64,000 nt of DNA from Sphingopyxis sp. 2PD. Lineage in GTDB: Bacteria > Pseudomonadota > Alphaproteobacteria > Sphingomonadales > Sphingomonadaceae. Shown here one piece after another: positions 59,527 through 61,696 of the stretch. The notes below the pieces were generated by a model. The model was not told the DNA's origin. It saw nothing but the letters and a program-made list of their open reading frames with translations, and did no database searches. The first letter of the stretch is position 1. Each line of letters opens with the position of its first letter. Made by a program: the position numbers and the translations under genes. The DNA lies in contig NZ_SCMU01000002.1 of assembly GCF_005503695.1 (NCBI RefSeq), positions 186,001 to 250,000 on the forward strand, written 5' to 3'.

Positions 59527-59988
59527 ATGGACAGCAGCAACGGCGAGGTGCCGCGCGAGGATTTTCGGGTCCACGAAACAGTGCGCGTGCGCTTCAACGA
59601 GATCGACGGTCAGAACATCGTCTTCAACGGCAATTATCTGGTCTATGCCGATATCGGCGTGACCGAATATTTCCGCGCCTTGGGAGAGGGGCAGCCCGGC
59701 CCCTATTTTCACCAATATGGTACAGATATTCGCGAGACACGGTGCGAAATCGAATATCACGCCCCCGCCCGGCTCGACGAGCAGATTACCATTGCGGCGC
59801 GAGTCAGCCGGTTCGAGCGGACGAGTTTCACCGTCCATTGCGCGATTTTTCGCGGCGCCGAGCGGTTGACCGATATCGCGATCAGCTATGCGCATGTCGA
59901 TCTCGACAGCGGCGGCGCAACGCCCTTACCCGGCAGTTTTATCGCCGAAGTGCGCCGATTCGAAAAGCGGATGCCGTTGCAGGCGTGA
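59527..59988 (+). CDS. Acyl-CoA thioesterase (4-hydroxybenzoyl-CoA thioesterase family)
   Basis: 153 residues of the hot-dog fold. VHETVRVRFNEIDGQNIVFN contains the Asp-x-x-x-hydrophobic pattern of the YbgC/4HBT active site, followed by YLVYADIGVTEYFRALG. Probably hydrolyses acyl-CoA in the cytosol; the substrate is not known. It starts 7 bases after the aminopeptidase gene. Confidence 0.82.
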   Translation: MDSSNGEVPREDFRVHETVRVRFNEIDGQNIVFNGNYLVYADIGVTEYFRALGEGQPGPYFHQYGTDIRETRCEIEYHAPARLDEQITIAARVSRFERTSFTVHCAIFRGAERLTDIAISYAHVDLDSGGATPLPGSFIAEVRRFEKRMPLQA

Positions 59989-60041: not shown

Positions 60042-60069
60042 AAAAAAAGGGCCGCCCGAGGGGCGGCCC
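60042..60069 (-). terminator. Intrinsic terminator of the candidate sRNA
   Basis: Stem GGGCCGCCC/GGGCGGCCC with loop CTC, followed on the minus strand by TTTTTTTC. The U-tract is on the minus side only, so it cannot be the terminator of the preceding + strand thioesterase gene. Confidence 0.75.
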
Positions 60070-60155
60070 ATGAAAGTTTTGGGAGAGGATGCCTAAAAGG
60101 CATGCTCATATTGCAGCGCACAAAAAATTGTGCAACTGCGAAATGAGCATCTGCA
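60042..60155 (-). ncRNA. Candidate small regulatory RNA with intrinsic terminator
   Basis: On the minus strand a long stem-loop comes first: ATGCTCAT/ATGAGCAT, then GCAG/CTGC, then GCACAA/TTGTGC with a TTTT loop (60102-60150). It is followed by ATGCCT/AGGCAT (60089-60103), whose arm overlaps the outer stem by two bases. A C-rich single strand with CCTCTCCC that could pair with ribosome-binding sites comes next, then a 9-bp terminator GGGCCGCCC/GGGCGGCCC and seven T. A promoter-like TTGCAG, 18 bases, AAAAAT lies at 60190-60161. No minus-strand gene ends here. This is the classic layout of a trans-acting sRNA. Confidence 0.55.
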
Positions 60156-60249
60156 ATTGCATTTTTTGCAATCTATGGCCGGCGCTGCAATCGTTCGGTG
60201 CAATCGCCGCCCTCTCGCCAATCGCCGCGAGATCGCCTAAATTGCCGCC

Positions 60250-60717
60250 ATGGGAATGTTCAACAACGTCGATATCGGCGGCGGCCTGTCCGATTTCTGG
60301 GCCTATGTCCGCGAACCGCGTCCGCACCGCTGGGCCAGCTGGGGCGTTGCGATCGTGCTGCCGATCGTCGTTTTCTATGGTTTTTCCGAGCATCTGATCC
60401 GCACCGAGGAGCCGAAGGTGCAGATCATCTATTTCGAAAACTGGTCGGCCGACCGCAGCGCCGCCGAAATCCGCGCCGATTGGGTCGCGCGCGCGAAAGA
60501 AACGACGCGCGCCAATGCCGAAAAGCGCGCCGAATATCAGCGACTCGCCGATATGATGGGGGTCGAATATGATTCGGCCGAGGCCGACAAGGTGACCCGC
60601 GAAACGCTGGGCGAAGCGGAAGCGGCGGCGGCGAAGCAGAAAAAGCCCGTCGCTGCGGTGCGTTCGACGCTCGCCGAACGCGCCGCGCGCGGGCCGCAAG
60701 CGCAGGCAGCCGACTGA
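60250..60717 (+). CDS. Conserved membrane-anchored protein of unknown function
   Basis: 155 residues with a start at MGMFNNVDIGGGLSDFWAYV or at the internal Met. One hydrophobic span (WGVAIVLPIVVFYGFSEHLI, about residues 31-50) is followed by an Ala/Glu/Lys-rich helical region with coiled-coil-like heptads (about 70-140). Function unknown. It lies 4 bases before ribD and may share its transcript. Confidence 0.72.
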   Translation: MGMFNNVDIGGGLSDFWAYVREPRPHRWASWGVAIVLPIVVFYGFSEHLIRTEEPKVQIIYFENWSADRSAAEIRADWVARAKETTRANAEKRAEYQRLADMMGVEYDSAEADKVTRETLGEAEAAAAKQKKPVAAVRSTLAERAARGPQAQAAD

Positions 60718-60721
60718 GCGC

Positions 60722-61696
60722 ATGCAACGACGGCCCGCCGATGCCGACTGGATGGCGGTCGCCATCGCGCTGTCGCGGCGGGGCCGCCCGGCGGCGGCGC
60801 CCAATCCCAATGTCGGCTGTCTGATCGTCAAGGACGAGAAGGTCATCGCACGCGGCTGGACGCAAGCGGGCGGGCGCCCGCATGCCGAGGCGATGGCGAT
60901 CGCCGCGGCGGGAGACGCGGCGCGCGGCGCCACCGCTTATGTCACCCTCGAGCCGTGCGCCCACGCCAGTCCGCGCGGACCGTGCTGCACCGATGCGCTG
61001 ATCGCCGCGGGGGTCGCGCGCGTGGTCGTTGCGGCGCAGGATCCCGACCCGCGTACGAATGGCAAAGGCATGGCGCGGTTGCGCGATGCGGGGATTGCGG
61101 TCGTCGAGGGCGTCCTGGCCGCCGAAGCGCGCGCCGCGATGGTGCCCTGGTGGACGCGGCAGCTTGCCGGACGTCCGTTCGTCACCCTCAAGCTTGCGAC
61201 CTCGCTCGACGGCTGCATCGCGATGGGTGACGGGTCGAGCCGCTGGATCACAGGGGACCGCGCGCGCGCGCATGGTCATCTCGAACGCGCGCAGCATCAG
61301 GCGATCCTTGTCGGGCGCGGGACGCTCGACGCCGATGCTCCGCGGCTCGATGTGCGGCTGGCCGGATTGGCGGACCGCAGCCCGCAGAAGCTGCTGCTGA
61401 CCTCGGGCAACGCGCCCGCAGGCTGGACCGCCGTTGCCTCGCCCGATGCGATCAACGATGTCAATTCGGTGCTGGTCGAGGGCGGCGCCGGGGCCGCGTC
61501 AGCCTTTCTCGCCGCCGATCGCGTCGACCGCCTGCTGCTCTACCGCGCCCCGATCCTGATCGGCGGCGGCAAGCCCGCGCTGGGCGACATCGGGCTGACC
61601 GATCTGGCCGACGCCCATCGCTGCTGGCGACTGACCGACAGCCGCCTGCTTGGCAGCGACCGACTCGACGTTTACGAGCGGGTCAGAGAAGGATAA
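60722..61696 (+). CDS. ribD: Bifunctional riboflavin deaminase/reductase
   Basis: Converts the first pyrimidine intermediate through deamination and reduction in riboflavin synthesis. The 324 residues have an N-terminal deaminase with zinc ligands in HAEAMAI and LEPCAHASPRGPCCTDALI, and a C-terminal reductase (VTLKLATSLDGCIAMGDGSS, AILVGRGTLDADAPRL). The length is somewhat short for RibD. No FMN riboswitch is visible upstream. Confidence 0.95.
   Translation: MQRRPADADWMAVAIALSRRGRPAAAPNPNVGCLIVKDEKVIARGWTQAGGRPHAEAMAIAAAGDAARGATAYVTLEPCAHASPRGPCCTDALIAAGVARVVVAAQDPDPRTNGKGMARLRDAGIAVVEGVLAAEARAAMVPWWTRQLAGRPFVTLKLATSLDGCIAMGDGSSRWITGDRARAHGHLERAQHQAILVGRGTLDADAPRLDVRLAGLADRSPQKLLLTSGNAPAGWTAVASPDAINDVNSVLVEGGAGAASAFLAADRVDRLLLYRAPILIGGGKPALGDIGLTDLADAHRCWRLTDSRLLGSDRLDVYERVREG

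Follow-up and report, generated by a model that had tools for sequence, protein, structure and literature searches.

Minus-strand DNA at positions 60,042 to 60,155 of a 64,000-nucleotide stretch of the Sphingopyxis sp. 2PD genome, hereafter the window, combines an elaborate stem-loop, a CU-rich motif and a terminator. The question that it raises is whether an independent regulatory RNA is made here and, if so, where that RNA would begin and what would control it.

Identity and structure of the minus-strand RNA

Scanning the whole window with cmscan gave a match to the Rfam family RF00519 (suhB/MmgR, alphaR8) at 60108-60034 on the minus strand, with 58.1 bits against a cut-off of 41 and with model positions 1-77 of 77 matched, the full length of the model. 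RF00519 is the sole Rfam family to exceed its cut-off within the 64 kb; 12 further families, BjrC1505, SorY and rli32 among them, appeared in a low-threshold scan, each below its own cut-off. In the genome to which the window belongs (3.58 Mb in 53 contigs) 18 places matched RF00519 at E ≤ 10, with the window locus alone over the cut-off. A place at 146-226 of contig C1 (32.9 bits) was considered as a second suhB copy and rejected; by eye it is a gene-end terminator beside a tRNA-like gene and is without the core. Among 60 relatives 59 match the family at E ≤ 0.01 and 57 are over the cut-off. The architecture of the family, a short 5′ hairpin, an unpaired CU-rich core and a Rho-independent terminator, is present at the locus. 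We put the probability at about 0.9 that this is a suhB (MmgR/alphaR8) small RNA gene, with a short transcript from about 60101 to 60042 on the minus strand (Table 1).

The initial annotation, made from the letters, had proposed an independent small RNA with an anti-Shine-Dalgarno CU-rich loop and its own terminator, and this is backed by the RF00519 match, by conservation and by the SuhB already published from Sphingopyxis (PMC6563040). It had also called the RNA uncharacterised, which is wrong given the outcome of the Rfam comparison that it had itself proposed and the publication of SuhB from Sphingopyxis granuli, where the RNA of strain TFA is 61 nt long by dRNA-seq and Northern and is reported to be conserved in the genus (PMC6563040). 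The RNA is thus already known as a family, including in Sphingopyxis; what we newly infer are the PhaR link and the upstream palindrome described below.

In order of transcription the RNA would consist of the GCCUUUUAGGC hairpin of 4 bp, an unpaired AUCCUCUCCCAAAACUUUCAU stretch, the terminator of nine GC pairs and then seven U. The terminator scan recovers the described 9-bp GC stem with seven T at 60069-60042, the chance expectation being 0.5 such sites in the 114-nt stretch, and the motif described as exposed, CCTCTCCC (60088-60081), is unpaired in the predicted fold. The flanking genes, a thioesterase, an open reading frame with no Pfam match and ribD, all lie on the plus strand, as had been noted.

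Table 1. Features of the suhB locus and its neighbours; positions are those of the window.
Feature	Position	Strand	Basis or remark
4HBT thioesterase	59527-59988	+	neighbour
SuhB/MmgR-family sRNA, predicted	60042-60101	-	60 nt; RF00519 match, -10 block and GCC after the -10; S. granuli 61 nt
Terminator tail, seven T	60042-60048	-	sequence and terminator scan
Terminator stem-loop, 9 GC pairs	60049-60069	-	terminator scan; 100% of cells paired
Unpaired core AUCCUCUCCC, candidate RBS-pairing region	60081-60090	-	invariant in 33/33 genus rows; unpaired in fold
5′ hairpin GCCUUUUAGGC	60091-60101	-	invariant in 33/33 genus rows; predicted fold
Three-segment stem-loop of the initial annotation, most likely promoter DNA outside the predicted RNA	60102-60150	-	fold, covariation, wider loci
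-10 element CAATAT, weak TATAAT match	60108-60113	-	CAATA in 33/33 genus rows
PhaR-type box TGCGCTGCA (YGCRNYGCR), overlaps -10	60112-60120	-	33/33 aligned genus rows
-35 element TTGCAC, 16 nt from -10	60130-60135	-	TTTCGCAGTTGC in 33/33 genus rows
Palindrome TTGCAAAAAATGCAA, putative regulator site	60157-60171		centre 63 bases before predicted start
155-aa ORF between suhB promoter and ribD	60250-60717	+	no Pfam match
ribD	60722-61696	+	neighbour

Conservation was followed in two samples. The genus alignment has 33 rows, the window and 32 loci from 35 same-genus relatives; left out were two divergent loci (G015 and G017), which were read by eye, and G030, which has no match over the cut-off. 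The wider set comprises at least 120 stretches found by searching for the core pattern in contigs of named genomes, so that invariance of the core there is by construction; upstream blocks were counted over 121 places among the matches listed, with two stretches (L094 and L119) too close to a contig end, and one more was dropped from the fold test for its 3′ end. Fold z-scores in both samples are against single-base shuffles.

One terminator pair is exchanged between AU and GC in 11 of the 33 genus rows, with all terminator cells paired. None of 500 shuffles reached the observed paired percentage, two-sided cells or covariation; the counts of pairs changed on both sides (1) and of further types (3) were reached in all 500. 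Among the matches listed for the wider set the terminator is found in 119 of 120 loci, as 93 distinct stems. The fold z of the RNA part averages -5.13 in the genus (33/33 below -2) and -3.69 in the wider set (110 of the 120 listed below -2). By its pairing and its exchanges the terminator behaves as RNA would.

The promoter and the stem-loop upstream

The initial annotation had placed the 5′ end near 60150, behind a TTGCAG-18-AAAAAT promoter. The letters are there, TTGCAG at 60190-60185 and AAAAAT at 60166-60161 on the minus strand, but as a promoter the pair was rejected: relatives do not conserve TTGCAG (the genus alignment takes in its last four letters, GCAG), AAAAAT falls inside a conserved palindrome, and a sigma-70 scan at 9 or more of 12 matches found no site, neither this pair nor TTGCAC/CAATAT. 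The blocks that are conserved are TTTCGCAGTTGC, CAATA and GCCTTTTAGGCATCCTCTCCC, all present in 33/33 genus rows. Over the 121 wider places among the matches listed the most conserved upstream block is TTCGCANTTGC, with a 17-nt spacer to the -10; with positions numbered from CTTT, the conserved columns are TTCGCA-N-TTGC (-44 to -34) and CA-A (-14 to -11). Since this -35 and -10 lie further down than the pair first proposed, the start would fall near 60101 and the three-segment stem would be left out of the RNA. Neither hexamer is a good match to sigma-70 and the scan gave no site, so the start is placed by conservation together with the published length: TTGCAC-16-CAATAT points to a start near GCC at about 60101 and a transcript of about 60 nt, which fits the published 61 nt and leaves a 5′ end near 60150 unsupported (PMC6563040). 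The 75 bases upstream of the Sphingopyxis panaciterrae locus (L120) are almost identical to those of the genus rows, and those of Sphingopyxis sp. H050 (L110) differ.

The 114-nt minus-strand stretch does fold as had been described, at -52.8 kcal/mol and with a z of -7.3 against dinucleotide shuffles. That the three-segment stem is part of the RNA finds no support, as it lies upstream of the start near 60101 and is without covariation above shuffles. Over the 33 genus rows 82.1% of the cells of the 5′ structure are paired compared with 81.8% in column shuffles, the covariation is 0.075 compared with 0.073, and two-sided changes occupy 10 cells compared with 8.8, no excess. Slid versions of the structure pair in 16 to 61.2% of cells, below the observed value, as is usual for a structure derived from one of the rows. 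The outer helix is paired in 73.1% of cells, and one of its pairs is broken in 19 of the 33 rows, which carry a CACACTT flank (17) or another flank (2), with TGAGCAT in the remaining 14. The upstream fold z averages -3.03 in the genus, 18 of the 33 rows being below -2 and 11 below -4, all of the latter from the TGAGCAT group, the window included; in the 120 wider loci listed it averages -0.27, with seven below -2, about as in shuffles. As an RNA domain the stem was rejected, covariation giving it no support in the 33 rows and the fold z none in the 120 wider loci listed. The compensatory changes by which the initial annotation proposed to judge its stems are found in the terminator, in the AU/GC exchanges and the 93 stems of the 119 listed terminators, and not in the 5′ stem. 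The large dyad before the RNA is most likely a DNA switch, operator and promoter, rather than RNA, and it serves as a caution that a strong predicted stem-loop beside a small RNA can be an operator.

Two other readings of the locus have to be set against a short suhB transcript. Because 11 of the 33 genus rows fold strongly, the stem was retained as the 5′ domain of a longer RNA of about 114 nt that would start near 60155 in this sub-lineage, where it might hold or hide the short hairpin; the z of -7.3 agrees with such a domain, the AUGAGCAU arm would compete with the short hairpin, and the 3′ arm of the stem touches the first hairpin. A longer RNA is nevertheless improbable in view of the length of 61 nt published for S. 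granuli (PMC6563040), the covariation no higher than in shuffles, the mean z of the wider loci listed and the lack of conservation of the promoter that it would need. The outer pair broken in 19 rows also speaks against it, although a 5′ arm like ATGCTCAT persists in some (L044, L057). That there is no regulatory RNA here at all, only a stand-alone terminator or a 3′ remnant whose structure arose by chance, is hardly credible: the neighbouring genes lie on the opposite strand and the view is from sequence, both of which would suit a remnant, but the hairpin and core are invariant in the 33 genus rows, the Rfam match covers the locus, and the terminator stems vary in sequence yet stay paired in 119 of the 120 wider loci among the matches listed.

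Above the suhB promoter lies a second palindrome. TTGCR-N5-YGCAA is present in 33/33 genus rows and, among the matches listed, in 68 of the 121 wider places, or in 114 if up to two mismatches are allowed; 50 single-base shuffles gave 3.8 on average and 10 at most. Of these 114 listed palindromes 103 stand at -72 to -74 from CTTT, and in most of the sphingomonad loci examined TTGCA-N5-TGCAA precedes the start by 63-64 bases. The exact pattern has one place in the genome, the suhB locus; with one mismatch it has three matches in the window, 1.2 being expected. Its nearly fixed distance to the start suggests an activator, which probably binds at the palindrome. We know of no regulator with a TTGCA-N5-TGCAA site.

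A PhaR-type box at the -10

The box that overlaps the -10, TGCGCTGCA, fits the YGCRNYGCR core of the PhaR motif of S. meliloti and, within the PhaR consensus of Bradyrhizobium, the segment TGCRNYGCA (PMC6201568). YGCRNYGCR turns up often in GC-rich DNA, 122 times in the window where 154 would be expected, so only the position of the box and its extended form carry weight. With regard to position, the box is absent by eye in G015 and G017, two of the 35 genus loci; among the wider places listed it is found in 35 of 121 (33 at -21 and two at -22 from CTTT) and missing in 86, with the stricter TGCRNYGCA in 24. Loci from other families of the order (18 listed, from 24 such genomes searched) comprise six with upstream sequence and 12 without, and no box was seen by eye near the -10 in those six.

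The extended form, TTGTGCRNYGCA, has 24 matches in the genome on both strands, compared with one for the reversed control. They include the promoters of suhB, phaR and phasin, the three matches at the last being two boxes, one of which is counted on both strands, and they are also found upstream of malate synthase G and of an ANTAR protein; for several of the 24 the surroundings do not clearly suggest a promoter. The phaR gene and the phasin gene are each present once in the genome. A run of 16 bases in the phasin promoter, TTTTTTGTGCGCTGCA, is identical to the suhB promoter and is accompanied by a second box, TTGTGCACTGCA, and the region upstream of phaR has TGCAATGCACAA and TGCGATGCA. The suhB promoter hence shares YGCRNYGCR, the motif of the PhaR regulon, with the phasin and phaR promoters. 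Another of the extended matches, a PhaR-type box (L233, near 1500), lies between two divergent genes, one for a pyruvate/2-oxoacid:ferredoxin oxidoreductase subunit and the other for an alpha/beta hydrolase.

On these matches the binding of PhaR to the suhB promoter box appears somewhat the better bet. It is doubtful, though conceivable, that the dyad around the -10 instead binds another regulator with the same TGC/GCA spacing. Binding of PhaR here is a prediction, and the box is absent from 86 of the 121 wider places listed although phaR is present in every one of 64 genomes drawn from the window's family, as would suit a different regulator; this universal presence also makes the occurrence of phaR uninformative as a test of the box. 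The 16-base identity with the phasin promoter and the boxes before phaR itself argue for PhaR, as do the S. meliloti precedent, where gel shifts were made with the mmgR promoter (PMC8401924, PMC12542648), and the report that PHB granules favour suhB transcription (PMC6563040). No published link between PhaR and SuhB in Sphingopyxis was found among the papers listed from the literature searched, most subscription journals lying outside its scope, and the available text of the 2019 review that links PHB granules to suhB transcription has no mention of PhaR (PMC6563040).

The core, its predicted targets and related RNAs

The core AUCCUCUCCC is identical in 33/33 genus rows, and the 18 loci from other families of the order have, by eye, TTTCCTCCCT. 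A search for TTGC-N24-34-CTTTYAGGCATCCTCTCC in 147 genomes of the order gave 45 of the 64 genomes in the window's family and none of the 83 others. The literal 10-mer UUUCCUCCCU that alphaR8 RNAs are described as sharing (PMC12559287) is not found and AUCCUCUCCC stands in its place, so the RNA is assigned to the Rfam model and to SuhB, its core having diverged, and not to alphaR8 in the narrow sense. Three Novosphingobium stretches of 8 kb (L096, L115 and L136) have two suhB cores each, and five places in a single genome (G176) fit the promoter-plus-core pattern.

Since many of the 23 genome matches of GGGAGAGGAT alone lie in an interspersed hairpin repeat, sites with an ATG behind were used in the target search. 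GGGAGAGG stands 3-10 bases before an ATG 16 times in the genome, compared with once for the reversed control. Eleven of these sites open frames of at least 80 codons, two of which, at 83-84 codons, are doubtful as genes, and five lead into frames of fewer than 50 codons, one of them truncated where its contig ends; at least two of the 16 are within the interspersed repeat. Five of the eleven longer frames, compared with Pfam, give as predicted targets a dctA-type dicarboxylate symporter, two MFS transporters, a TonB-receptor plug protein and an alpha/beta hydrolase. Pairing of the core with the start regions of phasin (-11.2 kcal/mol) and phaR (-17.0 kcal/mol) is weak compared with the 16 sites (-20.8 to -32.4 kcal/mol), so the direct repression of phasin proposed for MmgR is unsupported here. 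Homologues of dctA were found 18 times in 17 genomes of the 36 searched, and GGGAGAGG was seen by eye upstream of the presumed start in nine of the 17 loci besides the window's own genome, with variants or nothing in the other eight; dctA as a conserved predicted target is thus only partly supported. Within the interspersed repeat, CTCCTCTCCC-loop-GGGAGAGGATA (near 1500 in L202, L206, L212, L213, L217 and L224), stands a sequence exactly complementary to the SuhB core, and if transcribed the repeat could act as a SuhB sponge. The genome has one hfq gene (C1, about 16.9-17.4 kb; L200, 1486-1986), in which two tandem Hfq domains lie in one frame of 167 aa.

A mechanism may be proposed in which the exact start, the binding of PhaR, the activator and the targets in this genome are all taken as predicted. 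Polymerase would start near 60101 on the minus strand and stop near 60042 to give an RNA of about 60 nt, the U tail of its terminator serving Hfq; with Hfq, the AUCCUCUCCC core would pair with G/A-rich ribosome-binding sites and block translation of genes for carbon uptake and catabolism. In cells without stored PHB, PhaR would sit on the -10 box and keep suhB off; as PHB accumulates the granules would titrate PhaR away and suhB would be transcribed, with an activator on the second palindrome, 63-64 bases upstream. The full scheme, in which the carbon store sets the level of SuhB via PhaR, SuhB turns off dctA, MFS, TonB-receptor and catabolic genes, a dedicated activator acts and the core has switched from UUUCCUCCCU to AUCCUCUCC, is given an even chance of being right. 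If true, it would connect PHB mechanistically to catabolite repression in S. granuli, where the figure of the review has unknown links (PMC6563040), and a palindrome found once per genome would have been retained among sphingomonads along with a core switch specific to the lineage. The reading of the promoter could also bear on the way in which stored PHB affects how sphingomonads degrade tetralin and other pollutants.

Among the closest known systems is SuhB of S. granuli, which with Hfq binds the 5′ UTR of thnR and represses it; expression of suhB rises at high growth rate and is tied to PHB granules, and Sphingopyxis strains that lack thn genes have also conserved the RNA (PMC6563040). The present RNA is alike in genus, family name, predicted length (about 60 nt compared with 61), the presence of Hfq and the PHB and growth-rate setting. 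In Caulobacter crescentus the unpaired core of SisA-D pairs upstream of the start codon, as shown by compensatory mutation, TonB receptors and transporters abound among the targets, and the sponge CrfA neutralises the four RNAs (PMC12559287). Family, unpaired core and Hfq are common to both, and the targets predicted here include transporter and TonB-receptor types, but SisA-D are four copies with the core UUUCCUCCCU whereas here there is one locus with AUCCUCUCCC. MmgR of S. meliloti (alphaR8) is 77 nt long and under positive control by NtrC (PMC8401924, PMC12542648, PMC7143759), and mmgR is repressed by AniA/PhaR, with a dyad between the -35 and -10 and gel shifts of the promoter (PMC8401924, PMC12542648). 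It shares with the present locus the Rfam family, a promoter dyad and a link to PHB, the binding of PhaR being predicted here, and differs in the place of the box, here on the -10, in the core, here AUCCUCUCCC, and in the second palindrome upstream, which is a feature of the present locus. The AbcR RNAs (alphaR15) expose CU-rich anti-Shine-Dalgarno motifs in unpaired regions and show partial homology to the SuhB model (PMC7143759); they are 120 and 114 nt long with two CU-rich motifs, whereas the present RNA has one and only RF00519 is over its cut-off.
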